From the IMG/VR virus record IMGVR_UViG_3300023091_000006, positions 1 through 43,333 of that record: 43,333 nucleotides of DNA. One strand, written 5' to 3'. The notes under the pieces are model-generated. The model had not been told where the DNA came from. It worked only from the letters and a program-made list of their open reading frames with translations, and made no database searches. Positions 1 to 43,333 of this stretch are shown here, piece by piece; position 1 is the stretch's first letter; each line of letters opens with the position of its first letter. A program made the position numbers and the translations under genes. The DNA comes from a virus.

Positions 1-253
1 GCAACACCACTCGCCAGCTTGCTCAGATTAACAACCACACCGAATTCAAGACTCCATGGTGGCAACAGGACGAGTACGAGCAAACCAGCGGATACGACCC
101 GTCGCACCGCGACGACGCCACCGCAATCACGACCGCCGCGTCGACGGCAGCGCATTTTCAGGACGACGCCGAGCGCATCGTCGCCATAACCCACCACTTC
201 CGGGCGTTGAATAACGACGACCAGGAAACAATCATTGACACGTTGACCGACAT
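1..253. repeat. Terminal direct repeat, left copy
   Basis: Identical to 43081-43333 except for one base (T at 127, C at 43207), which changes a codon of the JAMM gene from Thr to Ile. An open frame continues without a break from 43333 into position 254 if the two copies are merged. The simplest reading is a circular or circularly permuted genome assembled with a redundant end. A real 253-bp terminal redundancy cannot be excluded. Confidence 0.95.
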
Positions 254-344
254 TCAACAAGAAGGAGCTTGGAATGCTGAACGAGACGCTCACCTCATCG
301 ACCCTGACGCCGACACCGCCGCCCAGCCAGGAACCCCCGATTGA
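1..344 (+). CDS. JAMM/MPN+ metalloprotease, C-terminal part (gene begins at 42459)
   Basis: This is the 3' end of the gene that starts at 42459. Position 1 is the second base of a codon, and the frame runs to TGA at 342-344. It supplies roughly residues 208-321 of a 321-residue protein. This part is polar, rich in Asp, Thr and His, lies outside the metal site and resembles no domain I know. It overlaps the start of the E1-like gene by 71 bases in another frame, which suggests coupled translation of protease and E1. See the entry at 42459 for the catalytic motif. Confidence 0.85.
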   Translation, partial: NTTRQLAQINNHTEFKTPWWQQDEYEQTSGYDPSHRDDATAITTAASTAAHFQDDAERIVAITHHFRALNNDDQETIIDTLTDIQQEGAWNAERDAHLIDPDADTAAQPGTPD

Positions 345-18958: not shown

Positions 18959-19159
18959 ATGGACACATGGCGCAGATGGACAATCGGAGGAGTAGCAATT
19001 AGCATAGCCATAACAGCCGTCAGTTTACTCTACCTGCTTCAAACGCCCAATTCTGACGCACTGCTACTGATCCTGCCGGCAAGCGTGTGGGTCGGGGTGA
19101 TATTCGCGTCAATCATCACCAAACCGAACCACACGCCGCCGACAAAGACTGCTATTTAG
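18959..19159 (+). CDS. Small two-helix membrane protein, holin-like (66 aa)
   Basis: Has AAGGAGG 8 nt upstream of ATG. Two hydrophobic segments (about 9-27 and 34-54) with a short polar turn, a charged N-terminus and a polar Lys/Thr-rich tail give a two-span membrane topology. That is the layout of class II holins and also of many other small phage membrane proteins. It is the only + gene among the virion genes, with its own promoter, and its end overlaps the end of the opposite gene by 8 nt. No endolysin lies beside it, so holin is a guess; an early-expressed exclusion protein is the alternative. Confidence 0.65.
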   Translation: MDTWRRWTIGGVAISIAITAVSLLYLLQTPNSDALLLILPASVWVGVIFASIITKPNHTPPTKTAI

Positions 19160-21305
19160 CCGTAGACGGCCTAACCCCAGCCGCCTGCGCGGCCGTCGGA
19201 ACACCCATCCGGGGATCGGCACCAGACCCGCCAGTCAGCGACTTGCGAATCCGATCAATCGACGCCTGAATGTCGGTCCACTCGCCGTCGACGCGAGCCC
19301 AACTACTCGCGCCCCACTGAGAACCGAGCGTCGCCTCCATGTGATTCAAACGCTGCAACATCTCGGGACGATACTTCGTCAGATCGGCGGCAGACATCGA
19401 CTGAATGTTACGCCCGAACTCGCCAATGGCCTTCAGAACGCCGGTATTGTTCTGCCAGGTAAAAATCGCATTCGGATCAACACCTTGCGCGCGGCCTTCG
19501 GCCTCGCCCCACCACTTGCCAGCCCCACTCTGAGCAAACCCGGTGTCATAGTCGCGATTCGTCGCCATTGCATCGCCAAGGGCGGCAGGACCGCCAGAAC
19601 CGGCATTATCACCGCCAGGCGAGAAGCCACCAGGAGAAGCCGACTGGCCAAGAATCGACCCCATCGCCTTGCCCTGCGACTGGTTAATCGGACCACCACG
19701 CACCTGATCCAATGCAGCCCCAGAAGCAGCGACGTTAATCCCAGTCGCCTGCGCACCGGCGAGCTTGGACTGGTCCTGCGTACCCTGAACAACAGCGCCA
19801 GTCTTGGCCGTCTGCATCGCCAAATCACTCGCACGTTCTCTCTCTAGGTAAGCACGAGACGCCGCCTGATCGCCCTGCCACAATTCACCTTGGCTCTTAG
19901 CGAACTTATCGTTGTCGCTCATAGCAGCGTTCTTAATGGCCCCGGCACCCTCCGTAAACGCCGTCATGTTCTGAATAGCATTGCCATCGGACGCCTGCCG
20001 CATACGCTGACCACCAGACCCGTCAGGAATAATATTGCCGGCCCCGGCCTGCAGGCGACCGTAAGCATCTTGCTTGTCCTCGCCGGCAATATTGATACCA
20101 CCGGAATACCTGTTCTGCTGATCCCGATAGGCCCCGAATTGCTGCAAGCCAGCCGCGTCGCCATTTTGGTTCTGTAGCCACTTACGAGCAATCCACTCGT
20201 TCTCGTTCAATCCATCGGTGCCGCCGGCCCCTTGAAGCTGCGAGAACTGCTGGTGCCACCCCTGCAACTTCGCATACGCAGCATCCTCCGGGGTAGACGA
20301 GCCATCACGATTATTCTGCCACGCCTGCCCCGCAGCGTCATGCGCAGATTTTTCGGCAGCGTCATACTGAGCCGACCATTGAGAAGCAGGGTTAAACGAC
20401 CCATAATTCTGCTTATTGTACGAGTCCTTCAACATCGAACGCTCCGCCGTGGTTTGCATCCCAGGAGCGGCAGTAATCCACTTGGTTTCGCCGGTAGTCG
20501 GATCGGCAATGCCTTGCCGGCCACGCAAATCCATTGCGTCTTGCAATTGCTGACTCTTCTGGCCAGTCGCAACATACGTAGCAAGGTGCCCGGCCGGCAA
20601 ATCAACCCTCCCAGCCAGACCCTCAGCGATCCGCTGTCGCACGGCACGTTGCGCCTGTTCTTGCGGCGAAATCTGCGGAGGAGCGTACGGATTCTGATCG
20701 CCAGCGCCACCGTAACCGCCACGATCATTGTTGCCGTTCCCGTAACGATTGACTTGCTCGTTCGACGGCGCATAACCACGGCCGTAGCCGTTTTGCGACG
20801 GCTGGAAACCCCAACCGTACTGTGCCGGCACGCTCTCGGAATAAGGGCCTTGCGTCGAAGGGGCGCTCCAATTATACGCGCCACCAGCACCACCGCCATT
20901 AACCGCCCGATTAGTAGCCGCGACCATCGGATCGCCGCCAAACAGATTCGGGCCATTGCCAGCCGGAGGATACCCGCCGCCGAAACCGGTAGGAGAACCC
21001 TGATTCGTTGGCGGAAAATATCGCGGATCGCGACCAAGAACGCCCTGATCGTTACGAACCATCGGATGACCCGACCCGGCATTCGCGCTACGTTCCTGAT
21101 CTTCGTAATCCATCTGATTACGAAGCTGCCCGCTACGCTGTTGCGACAGACGATCCATCATCGCCTCGCGGTCGAATCCGGTAAAACCCATGCGCGGCCC
21201 AGGCTGCGGACGCTGATTCTGCTGGTCGTACTGATACTGACCAGCGCCCTGCAAGCCATTACCGCCATAGACTTGACCACGACCAACAAAAACCGGACCC
21301 GGCAT
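19152..21305 (-). CDS. Gly/Gln-rich virion protein (717 aa)
   Basis: Start set at 21305, after the collagen-like gene, with GGGGGTG upstream; the frame is open further up but only as a shadow of the collagen repeats. Residues 1-230 are low complexity (Gly, Gln, Asn, Tyr, Pro). Residues 230-717 are helical with many Gln, Ala and Asp (QEQAQRAVRQRIAEGL, QLQDAMDLRGRQG). This composition, and a place between tail and giant virion gene, suits an internal or ejected virion protein. No enzymatic motif seen. Its stop overlaps the + membrane gene. Confidence 0.6.
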   Translation of the reverse strand: MPGPVFVGRGQVYGGNGLQGAGQYQYDQQNQRPQPGPRMGFTGFDREAMMDRLSQQRSGQLRNQMDYEDQERSANAGSGHPMVRNDQGVLGRDPRYFPPTNQGSPTGFGGGYPPAGNGPNLFGGDPMVAATNRAVNGGGAGGAYNWSAPSTQGPYSESVPAQYGWGFQPSQNGYGRGYAPSNEQVNRYGNGNNDRGGYGGAGDQNPYAPPQISPQEQAQRAVRQRIAEGLAGRVDLPAGHLATYVATGQKSQQLQDAMDLRGRQGIADPTTGETKWITAAPGMQTTAERSMLKDSYNKQNYGSFNPASQWSAQYDAAEKSAHDAAGQAWQNNRDGSSTPEDAAYAKLQGWHQQFSQLQGAGGTDGLNENEWIARKWLQNQNGDAAGLQQFGAYRDQQNRYSGGINIAGEDKQDAYGRLQAGAGNIIPDGSGGQRMRQASDGNAIQNMTAFTEGAGAIKNAAMSDNDKFAKSQGELWQGDQAASRAYLERERASDLAMQTAKTGAVVQGTQDQSKLAGAQATGINVAASGAALDQVRGGPINQSQGKAMGSILGQSASPGGFSPGGDNAGSGGPAALGDAMATNRDYDTGFAQSGAGKWWGEAEGRAQGVDPNAIFTWQNNTGVLKAIGEFGRNIQSMSAADLTKYRPEMLQRLNHMEATLGSQWGASSWARVDGEWTDIQASIDRIRKSLTGGSGADPRMGVPTAAQAAGVRPSTAK

Positions 21306-21340
21306 AAAACACCCCCACAAAAAAACCACTACGATTGACC

Positions 21341-21796
21341 CTAGTAAGAACCACCAGGCAACCCCGGAGGGCCAGGCGGCCCTTCTTGGCCCTGCGGACC
21401 CATCGGCCCTTCGAAGCCCTGCGGACCCGTTTCGCCTTGCGGACCAACATCGCCCTGCAGACCCATCGGCCCTTCTTCGCCCTGCGGACCCGTTTCGCCT
21501 TGCGGACCAACATCGCCCTGCGGACCAGGAATACCCTGAGCGCCTTGCGGACCCATAGGACCATCTACGCCCTGCGGACCCTCGGAACCAGGAATGCCAG
21601 GCAATCCCTGCGCTGCGAAGCAAACGCAGAACTCGACCCCATGACTATCACAACAAACCAGAACATAATCGCCAATAGACGCCTGACCGTAACACCGCAT
21701 TGACCGAGACCCACCAACGGCGCGATCACCGCACGCGTCAAGTACAGACACGGAGACCATCATGCCATCAATGCCATTGACGATTCCGGCACCCAC
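21341..21796 (-). CDS. Collagen-like tail/appendage protein (151 aa)
   Basis: Begins with GTG in a TAGTG overlap with the nozzle gene stop. Residues 1-62 form a small Cys-containing beta domain. From about residue 63 to 148 the sequence is an almost unbroken series of Gly-X-Y triplets ([16 protein letters not shown] and similar), the pattern of phage collagen-like fibres, expected to form a trimeric triple helix. It ends GLPGGSY. It is probably attached to the tail next to the nozzle. DNA repeats inside it may let its length vary. Confidence 0.85.
21418..21521 (-). repeat. Near-identical 41-nt repeats inside the collagen-like gene
   Basis: The stretch 21418-21458 recurs at 21481-21521, a 63-nt shift equal to seven Gly-X-Y triplets. 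In-frame slippage or recombination between copies would lengthen or shorten the fibre without breaking the frame. Confidence 0.8.
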
Positions 21797-39949: not shown

Positions 39950-40335
39950 ACCGCGATGCCCTCGCACGCCTTCGCGCATCCTTTGCTATCTCCCTACACC
40001 GTCACAACGGCGAGAACGGCACCGAACTCGCGGCAGCCCTCTCCCTCGACGACCTTCAGGTCCTCTCCGACGCCTTGGATACCGGCACCACCGAAGCAGA
40101 GCCGAGCGACGGGCCAACCAACGCCGAACGCGCCGACCGAGGCGGTAGAGTCATGGGCCACTACCTCGCGCTCTCTAATTCGGACCCCACCACCGACCCT
40201 GAGGACCTTCTCGCCGACCTGATTACCGACATCGTCCACTGGCTGCGGTCGATTGGCTCAAACCACCCAGTCGCGACCACCGTTGCCTGTGCCCGCGACG
40301 CGACCCACCGCTATTACAAGGATACGGCCAAGTGA
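39934..40335 (+). CDS. Hypothetical protein (133 aa)
   Basis: AAGGAG is 8 nt before ATG. Acidic, helical, with LSLDDLQVLSDALDTG, an acidic linker, then ADLITDIVHWLRS and a basic end. No family recognised. The stop shares GTGA with the start of the Ubl-like gene at 40332, so both are translated together and might work together. Confidence 0.55.
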   Translation: MPRQVNRDALARLRASFAISLHRHNGENGTELAAALSLDDLQVLSDALDTGTTEAEPSDGPTNAERADRGGRVMGHYLALSNSDPTTDPEDLLADLITDIVHWLRSIGSNHPVATTVACARDATHRYYKDTAK

Positions 40336-40532
40336 AAACCATCCCCGTTACCTTCATCGACGGCAACCACGCCGAGACAATCCACGTCGAACGCGGAACC
40401 AGCCTGTCTGACTTCGCAACCTCGGCACCGATCACGAGAGGACCGGCACGGCACATGGCTGTTGCCCGCCGCAATATCACCGGCGCGTACCGCCTGCAGA
40501 AGGGCGACCGCATCTTTATTATCGATCAGTAG
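40332..40532 (+). CDS. Tail-less ubiquitin-like (ThiS/MoaD-type) protein (66 aa)
   Basis: Starts with GTG inside the stop of the preceding gene. The residues follow the small beta-grasp plan: PVTFIDGNHAETIHVERG (strand-turn-strand), SLSDFA (helix), a strand with AVARRN, and LQKGDRIFIID (L-x-x-G-D-x-I last strand). The chain ends IIDQ, without the flexible Gly tail needed for conjugation. It may be a non-conjugated regulator or partner of the true Ubl at 40654. Fold call by pattern, no search done. Confidence 0.6.
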   Translation: MKTIPVTFIDGNHAETIHVERGTSLSDFATSAPITRGPARHMAVARRNITGAYRLQKGDRIFIIDQ

Positions 40533-40533
40533 T

Positions 40534-40567
40534 GGGGTGTTGCACACGCATTTGCTTTACCTAAAAT
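40534..40567 (+). promoter_or_regulatory. Promoter of the Ubl gene
   Basis: GGGGTGTTGC (40534-40543), 2 nt after the previous stop codon, gives TTGCAC, 16 nt, then TAAAAT (40562-40567). RNA would start near 40575 with an 80-nt leader to the Ubl gene at 40654. A terminator lies right after that gene. Confidence 0.8.
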
Positions 40568-40653
40568 GCACTCCTCAGCAAACGTAGTAACCGACTCGGC
40601 GATCGTCGCCGAAAGCAGTATCTTCCATCCACCTTTTGTAAAGGAGCACCAGT

Positions 40654-40878
40654 ATGCCGCAGGTCACTTTCGTCAGCAACGTGGGCGCGGGTTCGGCCGG
40701 CAAGGTCGAGATCAAGTCGGGCCAGACGCTGCAGTCGCTCTTCGCCGCGAAGATGCGCGGCAAGGACATGAGCAACTTCAACATCCGCGTCAACCAGAAG
40801 AAGGCCGGGCCGGACACCATCCTGAAGCACAACGACATCGTCAGCATCACACCGACAAAGATCGACGCGGGCCGCTAG
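40654..40878 (+). CDS. Ubiquitin-like modifier (ThiS/MoaD-type beta-grasp, 74 aa)
   Basis: AAAGGAG precedes the ATG. PQVTFVSNVGAG and GKVEIKSGQTLQSLF form the first hairpin and helix; FNIRVNQKKAG..TILKHNDIVSITPTK gives the strands with the L...D-x-V-x-I-x-P end that ThiS/MoaD proteins share. The C-terminus is KIDAGR: a Gly followed by one extra Arg. Removal of that Arg, possibly by the JAMM protease nearby, would expose a terminal Gly for adenylation by the E1-like enzyme. Own promoter and terminator allow more Ubl than enzyme. The substrate is unknown. Confidence 0.82.
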   Translation: MPQVTFVSNVGAGSAGKVEIKSGQTLQSLFAAKMRGKDMSNFNIRVNQKKAGPDTILKHNDIVSITPTKIDAGR

Positions 40879-40900
40879 TACCAGTCGTAGCCAGGTCGTA

Positions 40901-40955
40901 GGGCAGGGGGTCTCGCGGAGACCCAAATTGAGGTCACGCACCCCCTGCCCTTTTT
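40901..40955 (+). terminator. Terminator/attenuator after the Ubl gene
   Basis: GGGCAGGGGGT (40901-40911) pairs perfectly with ACCCCCTGCCC (40940-40950), followed by five T. GGTCTC/GAGACC (40909-40923) offers a competing small hairpin. It stands between the Ubl and the E2/RING-like gene, so only read-through RNA or a promoter not recognised by me in 40956-41061 would reach the conjugation enzymes. Confidence 0.85.
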
Positions 40956-41061
40956 CTGTCTCTTCGCTTGCCCCAGGCTCTTTTCGCGGGTACCGGTATC
41001 CCCAGCGAACGGCACTGCCGGGGCGAGCGAAGATGCAGACCACCGACCCAGGAGTCACCAA

Positions 41062-42450
41062 ATGAGCATGACCCAGCAGCAAGTCAGGCGGCTGTACGCC
41101 TACATAGCCACGAACGCCAACACAAACGTCCAGGACCGCAACCTCGCCGAAGCTAACCGGCAGTTTCAGAGACTCAAGCGGACCGCTACGAGCCTCTTCA
41201 ATTGCGCCGAACGCCTGCTGGCCAAGCCAAAACTCAACAGCCGAGCCAGTCGCTACTTGGCCGAGCACTACCCGCAAGAGGCCGTCCAAGACATCTACCA
41301 AATCTCCGCGCGCCTACGCGAGTCATTCGCGCGTCTCGCTCTCGCCGATGGCAGGCCCGAAGTAATCACCTTTGACCCCCGCACCGTATTTACGGGCCTG
41401 ATTGCCCTCAACGAGCAATTCGACCCGGCTTACGAGCCGCGCACGCGACAAATCACTATCACCACGGACGCCATCACGCTCATTGACGACAACGGCCTCG
41501 CCCACGCACTCGGACGCTTCAACGTCGTTTTGTCAGTTCAAGCCCACACCATCACTTATGCCATCGACGCCCTCGAACCGCACTACGCCGCGCGCTTCGG
41601 GCAGGCCTGCCCACACCCGCACGTACAGGACCGCCACTTGTGCGCCGGTCAGTCGGCGATAAATGTCGAAAACCTGGCCAACGCTTTCGACATCTTAAAC
41701 CTTGTGGACATGATTTTCGCCACCCTCCACAGCTACCAGTCGGATAGCGCCTATGCCACGCTCGAAATGTGGAACTCCATCGGTAAGTGCCTCATCTGCG
41801 GATCGTGGGCCAATACGTCGTATTGCGAAACTTGCGAAGCCGTTACCTGTCGCGAACACCTCATGGAGTGCCCAGGCTGTCACGAGCACTATTGCGGCCA
41901 CTGCGCAAAGCACTGCCACCATTGCGGTAAGTCCATATGTCCGCAATGCTCATACCACGCGACAGACTGCCCCGCCTGCCACCGCCGCGTCTGCAACGAT
42001 TGCCTCATACGGTGCAATCACGTGGACACCAGTGGAAAACGCTGTACCACAAAAACTTGCCGTCGCTGTCAAACACAATGTGACTGCGGCAAGCACTACT
42101 GCAGCGCCCACGCTATGCGATGCACAAGATGTGCCACCAGGTCAGGCCTCACCACGCTCTTGTGCCCGCACTGTGCTAAGAAATGCAACACCTGCGGACA
42201 GGCCCTTTGCAGTTCACACGCGTTCACCTGCTACGATTGCGGGCACTCGTTTTGCCAGGACCACCTTTCCACCAACGGTATGCACTGCCCGGCCTGCTTG
42301 ACCAAGCGTCAGAACACCGCCGCCGACCACCTCGCCGCCGTTGCCGAACAAAAGCGTATTGACCGCAACGCCAGGGCGCGCGGACGCCGCGCCGCCAAGA
42401 AACTCGCGACCCTTATGGCCACCGACATAGCGGCATCCCCCATCTACTGA
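41062..42450 (+). CDS. Fused E2-like (UBC) and RING/treble-clef-like protein (462 aa)
   Basis: AGGAG before ATG. Residues 1-100 are helical. About 125-238 read as an E2 core: strands ITITTDAITLID and FNVVLSVQAHTITYAID, then PHPHVQDRHLCAGQ (184-197) with candidate catalytic Cys194 after the HPH motif, helix ENLANAFDILNLVDMIF and HSYQSDSAYATLEMW (223-237), the C-terminal UBC signature. Residues 243-412 carry over thirty Cys plus His in repeated CxxC...CxxH/CxxC units (CLICG, CETC, CPGC, CGHC, CPQC, CPAC, CRRC, CPHC, CPAC), like RING, B-box or treble-clef modules. One chain may thus be both E2 and E3. A basic tail ends the protein. Next gene 8 nt away. Confidence 0.82.
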   Translation: MSMTQQQVRRLYAYIATNANTNVQDRNLAEANRQFQRLKRTATSLFNCAERLLAKPKLNSRASRYLAEHYPQEAVQDIYQISARLRESFARLALADGRPEVITFDPRTVFTGLIALNEQFDPAYEPRTRQITITTDAITLIDDNGLAHALGRFNVVLSVQAHTITYAIDALEPHYAARFGQACPHPHVQDRHLCAGQSAINVENLANAFDILNLVDMIFATLHSYQSDSAYATLEMWNSIGKCLICGSWANTSYCETCEAVTCREHLMECPGCHEHYCGHCAKHCHHCGKSICPQCSYHATDCPACHRRVCNDCLIRCNHVDTSGKRCTTKTCRRCQTQCDCGKHYCSAHAMRCTRCATRSGLTTLLCPHCAKKCNTCGQALCSSHAFTCYDCGHSFCQDHLSTNGMHCPACLTKRQNTAADHLAAVAEQKRIDRNARARGRRAAKKLATLMATDIAASPIY

Positions 42451-42458
42451 GGAGTCCA

Positions 42459-43333
42459 ATGACCGCCCTTTCTAATGACAAAACGCCGGACGTTGTCTTG
42501 CCGAGCGATCCCGTTCTGACCTTCACGCCGTACGCTTGGGCCAAGCTCCTTTGGTTTCTTCACCACGGCGACACCGAAGTCGGCGGATTCGGGATCACCA
42601 GCGAAGAAAACCCGCTGGCCGTCTACGATTTTAAGACGATCAAGCAGGAAGCGTCAACGGCCTACCTCGAATTGGACGAGGACGCCGTTTCGGACTATTT
42701 CGAGACTATGGCCGTCGCCGGTCTACAGCCGACCAACTTCGCCCGCATCTGGATTCACACTCACCCCGGCAACTCGCCCGCGCCCAGCACCACCGACGAA
42801 CAGAACTTCCATCGCGCTTTCGGCGACGCCGAATGGATGGTCGCCTTCATCATCGCCCGCGACAATAGCACGTACTGCCGGCTGCGCTTCAACGTCGGGC
42901 CGGGCGGCAGCGCCACCATCCCGACCCAACTCGACTATGACACCGACTTCCCGGCCGCCTGCCACGACGACTGGGAAAAAGAATACGACGCCAACGTCCA
43001 CAAGAAGGTCTACACCGTTGCCGCCGCCGATTACACCTACATGAACTACAACTTGCGCGATCACCGGGGCACCGCCGGCGGCAACACCACTCGCCAGCTT
43101 GCTCAGATTAACAACCACACCGAATTCAAGACTCCATGGTGGCAACAGGACGAGTACGAGCAAACCAGCGGATACGACCCGTCGCACCGCGACGACGCCA
43201 CCGCAACCACGACCGCCGCGTCGACGGCAGCGCATTTTCAGGACGACGCCGAGCGCATCGTCGCCATAACCCACCACTTCCGGGCGTTGAATAACGACGA
43301 CCAGGAAACAATCATTGACACGTTGACCGACAT
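42459..43333 (+). CDS. JAMM/MPN+ metalloprotease, N-terminal part (continues at 1-344)
   Basis: GAGGAGT before ATG. Contains the complete JAMM zinc site: Glu40 in DTEVGGFGI, then His100-Thr-His102-Pro and, after seven residues, Ser110-x-x-Asp113 (HTHPGNSPAPSTTD), the exact spacing of Rpn11/AMSH-type deubiquitinases and bacterial JAB proteins. It should cleave isopeptide or peptide bonds after the Ubl glycine: maturing the Ubl or removing it from targets. The core is about 1-150; the rest, with the part at 1-344, is a polar extension. It lies between E2/RING-like and E1-like genes, 8 nt and -71 nt apart. Confidence 0.9.
   Translation, partial: MTALSNDKTPDVVLPSDPVLTFTPYAWAKLLWFLHHGDTEVGGFGITSEENPLAVYDFKTIKQEASTAYLELDEDAVSDYFETMAVAGLQPTNFARIWIHTHPGNSPAPSTTDEQNFHRAFGDAEWMVAFIIARDNSTYCRLRFNVGPGGSATIPTQLDYDTDFPAACHDDWEKEYDANVHKKVYTVAAADYTYMNYNLRDHRGTAGGNTTRQLAQINNHTEFKTPWWQQDEYEQTSGYDPSHRDDATATTTAASTAAHFQDDAERIVAITHHFRALNNDDQETIIDTLTD
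43081..43333. repeat. Terminal direct repeat, right copy
   Basis: Repeats 1-253 with C instead of T at 43207. See the left copy. Merging both gives a 43,080-bp circle and restores the JAMM gene. Confidence 0.95.

Follow-up and report, generated by a model that had tools for sequence, protein, structure and literature searches.

A putative gene set for ubiquitin-like conjugation in a temperate phage, with relatives in other tailed phages and on Planctomycetota chromosomes

Can a temperate phage carry its own pathway for tagging proteins with a ubiquitin-like protein and for removing the tag again? The question is raised by the virus record IMGVR_UViG_3300023091_000006, whose 43,333 nt were analyzed as a whole (hereafter the window) and in which genes for a ubiquitin-like protein (Ubl), an E2-like protein fused to a cysteine array, a JAMM isopeptidase and a ThiF/E1-like adenylating enzyme lie next to one another (Table 1). 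We conclude that this cassette is probably a phage-borne, reversible Ubl-conjugation cascade, a reading supported by the gene order, the intact active-site motifs, the fold model of the Ubl and wide co-conservation.

The ends of the window are near-identical direct repeats, in which 252 of the 253 bases match and the sole differing codon reads ATC or ACC. This repeat indicates that the record closes to a circle, and the Ubl, E2-like, JAMM and E1 genes, all on the plus strand, are then contiguous across the joint, through which the JAMM gene runs as a single open reading frame (ORF). The window also encodes a terminase, a portal, a major head protein and a tyrosine integrase; the virus is a tailed phage, and we call it temperate because of the integrase gene. 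An initial annotation of this DNA had placed the four genes on one strand across the circular joint, as one cassette of a temperate phage, and both statements hold.

Table 1. Features of the cassette and its surroundings in the window (aa, amino acids).
Feature	Coordinates	Strand	Basis or remark
Terminal direct repeat, left copy	1..253	.	marks the circular joint
JAMM isopeptidase, gene end past the joint	254..344	+	one ORF across the joint
ThiF/E1-like adenylating enzyme, 264 aa	274..1068	+	PF00899, invariant residues
Ubl-like ORF, 66 aa, no C-terminal Gly, just before the Ubl	40332..40532	+	resembles planctomycete Ubls in phmmer
Ubl, 74 aa, beta-grasp, C-terminus ...TKIDAGR	40654..40878	+	ThiS match, AlphaFold2/Foldseek, synteny in relatives
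GC-rich hairpin then U run, terminator- or attenuator-like, between the Ubl and E2 genes	40900..40952	+	RNA folding
E2-like protein fused to a putative zinc-binding Cys array, 462 aa	41062..42450	+	profile and phmmer matches, invariant residues
Codon of predicted catalytic Cys194 within HPHVQDRHLCAG	41641..41643	+	invariant in three E2 alignments
Tandem Cys array, residues 243-412, RING/FYVE/B-box-like	41788..42297	+	repeated CxxC-x(3-9)-CxxC/H units
JAMM isopeptidase, first part (321 aa in total)	42459..43333	+	E40, H100-T-H102-x7-S110-xx-D113 intact; Prok-JAB
Terminal direct repeat, right copy, near-identical	43081..43333	.	

The JAMM protein matches the Pfam family Prok-JAB at E=3.5e-5, slightly short of the curated cutoff; H100-x-H102, S110 and D113 are invariant among its relatives and E40 is present by eye, in agreement with the exact JAMM motif of the initial annotation. 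The neighboring enzyme, earlier described as E1/ThiF-like, consists of a single ThiF domain (PF00899; E=7.6e-23, 81.3 bits). Eleven of its residues (G58, G60, D82, D84, N90, K105, D144, R149, D170, R172 and C220) are invariant across 20 sequences, and the adenylation residues (GxG, DxDxVE..N, the Lys and the Mg-binding Asp) are kept. C220 is the sole invariant Cys in this set, and CxxC zinc pairs are absent from the enzyme. Translation may start later than listed, since the first 30 or so residues overlap the JAMM gene and have no counterpart in the majority of relatives.

The match of the Ubl to ThiS in Pfam is sub-threshold (E=1.1e-3). AlphaFold2 returned a model with beta-grasp topology (predicted local distance difference test, pLDDT, 83.4), and a Foldseek search of the PDB with this model retrieved SUMO, TtuB, MoaD and the Caldiarchaeum ubiquitin, bearing out the beta-grasp fold first suggested for this gene. 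Most relatives have a homologous Ubl at the equivalent position in the locus, and a Gly occurs among its last six residues in 36 of 43 relatives. Most of these ends read K[IV][DE]G followed by at least one residue, and because they extend beyond the Gly, trimming is expected. Other arrangements also occur: the Ubl ORF of loci L101/L102 (5063-5800) comprises three tandem Ubl-like domains and ends in VKGA, and in locus L132 (4627-5499) the Ubl sits at the C-terminus of a TOPRIM-like ORF, in a single reading frame.

The 41062 protein has no meaningful family match in Pfam, NCBIfam, PHROGs or PADLOC. A profile built from other phage E2-like proteins, excluding the window, picks it out of 5463 ORFs (E=1.2e-5), and a search with just the window protein detects E2-like ORFs at most of the genomic, planctomycete loci described below (1e-6 to 1e-14). 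G151, H185, P186, C194, G196, C255 and C258 are invariant in 35 such proteins; the window motif reads HPHVQDRHLC, with its His, Pro and Cys invariant among relatives, and is followed, after the Cys194 region, by a helix and an N-P-D-S-A-Y-like motif, as in eukaryotic E2s. The planctomycete and gut-phage clades of the family match each other in a profile comparison (95.7%, E=1e-8). In an alignment with three human E2 sequences, the motifs fall in register with UBE2D2 and the score of 20.5 exceeds that of all 60 shuffles, the highest of which reached 16.9. No similarity to a Deinococcus plasmid E2/UBC protein was found. Used as a single query, the window E2 recovered nothing new from phage records, viral contigs or genome contigs, the one match in the viral contigs being a 99.9% copy of this phage. 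The motif, synteny and family conservation make it likely that the protein is an E2.

Behind this core, the array brings the protein to 39 Cys in 462 aa and likely binds zinc. When the family profile was compared with the PDB, the array matched the RING-like domain of TFIIH p44 (7.6e-4), the FYVE domain of RUFY1 (1.8e-3) and the B-box of MID1 (3.5e-3), weak matches of a kind that Cys-rich profiles readily give; for none of 35 family members was a match to Pfam RING listed. The array is absent from many gut-phage members, which retain the E2-like core. The cysteine array of the initial annotation is real, but to name it a RING would be too strong; the proposed E2-like core around Cys194 stands as a conserved motif and a family, and structure prediction did not confirm a UBC fold.

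A tblastn search with the window E1 hit 93 phage records, many of them crAss-like and Flavobacterium phages. An alignment of ten phage E1s was too diverse for scanning. Viral contigs scanned by profile with four E1s gave 128 related loci, of which 80 were kept; the regularity of the cassette was counted in the 67 loci whose sequence extends 3 kb or more upstream of the E1, some of which are near-copies, so that the counts are not fully independent. Upstream of the E1, 65 of these 67 loci have a strict JAMM motif (H[ST]H-x7-S-xx-D), which occurs in 0 of 452 background ORFs of at least 180 aa. Under another motif and length rule, 64 loci have a JAMM, 49 have the order E2-JAMM-E1, and 52 have an E2 candidate, the last being a softer count that mixes profile with loose-motif matches. 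Scans anchored on the JAMM instead, with an alignment of the window, L061 and L030, which share the subtype RIWIHTHPG, recovered 27 viral and 26 genomic loci, with an E1 in nearly all and a Ubl and an E2 in most. Locus L061 also has a second E1-like ORF (486-1184), about 7 kb upstream of its cassette E1.

Among named phages, cr85_1, crAss001 and other Asinivirinae (Crassvirales) share with Flavobacterium phage FpV4 the order Ubl-like, E2-like, JAMM, E1, and in all of them genes for a DNA primase, a uracil-DNA glycosylase and an exonuclease are neighbors. In crAss001 (L012), gp76-gp79, annotated as ThiF, metalloprotease and hypothetical proteins, appear to be the E1/JAMM/E2-like/Ubl-like set. 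The Crassvirales and FpV4 cassettes differ from the window in that the E2-like motif is HSH...C-x-G, the Cys array is missing and the Ubl forms the N-terminal part of a longer protein. A profile comparison of the window E2 alone with the crAss E2s showed no link; the crAss/FpV4 profile is weakly linked to the gut-phage PH-type E2 group. The jumbo phages Xanthomonas PhiXhv-16 and Erwinia Ep032 encode a Ubl-like protein, which ends in SGG in PhiXhv-16, an E1, and an E2-like protein of 892 aa with HPHM...LCLG and Cys-rich ends.

The 26 genomic loci, from GTDB genomes, belong to Planctomycetota (25) and Candidatus Hydrogenedentota (one). The planctomycete chromosomes have the order Ubl-E2Zn-JAMM-E1, with homologs of the four core proteins, an equally Cys-rich E2 and a JAMM 40-51% identical to that of the window. 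Unlike the window cassette, the chromosomal operon is often preceded by an AAA+ ATPase gene and a further two or three, in the form W-X(TOPRIM-like)-AAA+-Y-Ubl-E2Zn-JAMM-E1, with the TOPRIM-like gene, recognized by eye, often opening it; no homolog of the AAA+ or its partner genes was found in the window. The E2-Zn fusion is sporadic, occurring in 9 of 294 Planctomycetota genomes. One genome (G241) has six copies on a single chromosome of 8.3 Mb, and the four of its loci that were inspected (L160-L163) all have the long operon form. Genes for a Piwi/Argonaute-like protein and a DpnII-like nuclease adjoin the Neorhodopirellula cassette (L138 9761-13305), and recombinases and integrases occur among the mixed genes that flank other copies, without a clean defence island. 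In a quick tree, phage and planctomycete E1s were interleaved, the window lying in a joint clade (SH-aLRT 93) with no resolved sister. Given this shared clade, the window phage may infect Planctomycetota. On sequence evidence, then, the cassette is no one-off: it is a member of a broad phage family and of a clade common with Planctomycetota chromosomes. The initial annotation was right about a phage-borne E1/E2-like/JAMM/Ubl cassette.

The logic of E1, E2, JAMM and Ubl is already known from bacteria and archaea. Type 6d clusters, which we take to be PRTRC, resemble the window in grouping Ubl, E2-like, JAB and E1-like genes. Passages of Iyer et al. 2006 (PMC1779556) describe this 6d gene set, with an E2-like protein in which the His conserved in classical E2s is missing and a His follows the Cys, among bacterial operon types 6a-6e and the phage tail genes TAPI/TAPK; a cassette like that of the window does not appear in those passages. 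The window E1 scored 32.8 bits against the PRTRC_ThiF cutoff of 144.75, and PRTRC_A gave no match. Bil (BilABCD) also unites Ubl, E2, JAMM and E1 in one operon, in which BilD combines a Cys domain with inactive and active adenylation domains, BilB has a CEHH motif and BilA two Ubl domains (PMC11354881). By contrast, the window has an E1 with one ThiF domain instead of two lobes, an E2 that carries HPH ahead of its Cys instead of CEHH and is fused to a Cys array, and a single Ubl, which sets it outside Bil. CBASS Cap2/Cap3 does not fit either, as the E1 and E2 are separate genes and the Cap3 model scored 22.4 bits against 200; no CD-NTase was found among the window ORFs scanned, and the PADLOC matches were to generic E1-E2 and JAB models only. 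The Caldiarchaeum subterraneum operon has a full set with a RING E3-like protein and an Rpn11/JAMM that trims pro-ubiquitin (PMC5654768); there, unlike in the window, a small RING protein is separate and the E1-like protein has a C-terminal ubiquitin-like domain. PMC4197634 credits Burroughs et al. 2011, on prokaryotic RING operons, with operons of a related kind from Planctomycetes, Actinobacteria and Acidobacteria. In the open-licence literature, we found no description of phage-borne Ubl-conjugation cassettes.

The catalytic steps, the role of the Cys array and the target are inferred. The Ubl precursor (...KIDAG-R) would be trimmed, most likely by the JAMM, to expose the C-terminal Gly, after which the ThiF-type E1 would adenylate it and load it onto Cys220. 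The Ubl would then pass to Cys194 of the E2, within HPHV...LC, the presumed counterpart of HPN...C in eukaryotic E2s. The fused array, RING/B-box-like in its pattern, may serve as a zinc-binding E3-like part in cis or in substrate docking, and the JAMM could later strip the tag from targets. The likeliest use would be the modification of phage or host proteins in infection; the primase, glycosylase and exonuclease neighbors in crAss-like phages and FpV4 favor a replication or DNA-handling target there.

Several observations weigh against this cascade. The hhalign probability between the E2 and UBC was low (3.7 to 11%), a HMMER search of the PDB with the E2 gave no E2 match, and a search with the AlphaFold2 model (pLDDT 59) gave no UBC match, the model, built from distant relatives, being so poor that its fold search is meaningless. 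The loose motif behind part of the E2 candidates also occurs in 8 of 284 background ORFs. In the window Ubl, Gly73 is followed by Arg (KIDAGR), so that the near-terminal Gly reported earlier is present but stands one residue later than in the family consensus, which reads KI[DE]G-A in most relatives. By eye, the E1 lacks an Arg matching MoeB Arg73, with a Pro in the window (NLGPQ, aligned with NLQRQ in MoeB) and other residues in relatives; such an Arg is a mechanistic residue and no criterion of the ThiF/E1 fold family. It is named among the MoeB residues in PMC12355090. If the 41062 protein were instead a zinc-finger nucleic-acid-binding protein, the Ubl, E1 and JAMM would form an E2-less tagging system in the style of archaeal SAMPs, consistent with the failure to match E2s in Pfam, PHROGs and the PDB and with the 16 of 67 E1-anchored loci without a recognized E2, JAMM, or both. 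We consider this doubtful, because Cys194 and HPH are invariant in a diverse family, the region ends in the NPDSAY-like motif expected of E2s and many gut-phage members keep the core without any Cys array.

A sulfur-carrier function, in which the Ubl and E1 deliver sulfur to a small molecule or RNA (as in ThiS/ThiF, MoaD/MoeB or TtuB) and the JAMM is a processing protease, would explain the resemblance of the Ubl to ThiS, TtuB and MoaD and the ThiF type of the E1, but it is very improbable: it leaves out the E2-like gene, which is integral to the cassette and whose Cys is invariant, the genes seen next to the cassette included none for rhodanese, thiamine or molybdopterin, and the E1 is without CxxC zinc pairs. 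The main alternative concerns the role and keeps the biochemistry: the cassette would be defence or conflict cargo, a host-type anti-phage or anti-plasmid module with which the prophage shields its host from rivals. The sporadic occurrence of its closest relatives and the six copies in one genome speak for this, as do the Argonaute-like and DpnII-like neighbors in Neorhodopirellula, the recombinases and integrases elsewhere and the interleaving of phage and planctomycete E1s; moreover, Bil (PMC11354881) and CBASS Cap2/3 (PMC12355090) are defence systems that use E1/E2/JAMM/Ubl chemistry. The DNA-metabolism block around the crAss-like and FpV4 cassette is conserved, however, unlike variable cargo, the window is without the AAA+ gene and its companions found in the chromosomal operons, and PADLOC recognized nothing beyond its generic models. 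A defensive role is therefore possible but rather unlikely, and we retain a conjugation cascade directed at phage or host proteins as the preferred reading.

Two elements flank the Ubl gene. The ORF just before it resembles planctomycete Ubls in phmmer (best 1e-3, locus L136), matches nothing in the Pfam or PHROG libraries and is possibly a degenerate tandem paralog of the Ubl. Downstream, RNA folding of 40885-40975 gave -41.1 kcal/mol (z=-3.7); a simple terminator scan, covering short loops only, did not list this hairpin, which could raise the abundance of the Ubl above that of its enzymes. Elsewhere in the window, a DUF932/TIGR03299 phage/plasmid-like gene (1462-2427) follows the E1, and collagen-like Gly-X-Y repeats (21371-21586) lie within a minus-strand ORF (19152-21623) that probably encodes a tail-fibre-type protein.

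Beyond this phage, we lean towards the view that tailed phages widely encode their own Ubl-conjugation pathway (a Ubl, an E2 that may or may not be fused to a zinc array, a JAMM and an E1) that modifies proteins in infection. This pathway would be found in crAss-like gut, Flavobacterium, jumbo and Planctomycetota-operon-related phages, hidden under thiamine biosynthesis or hypothetical annotations. Bacterial Ubl conjugation is known mainly as an anti-phage weapon, and complete cassettes inside phages would, if this is true, reverse that picture; the cultured members, crAss001 and FpV4, would then be tractable systems for target discovery. The fusion of an E2 to a zinc array, common to phages and Planctomycetota, is unusual and may offer a comparison point for the origin of the E2-E3 partnership.

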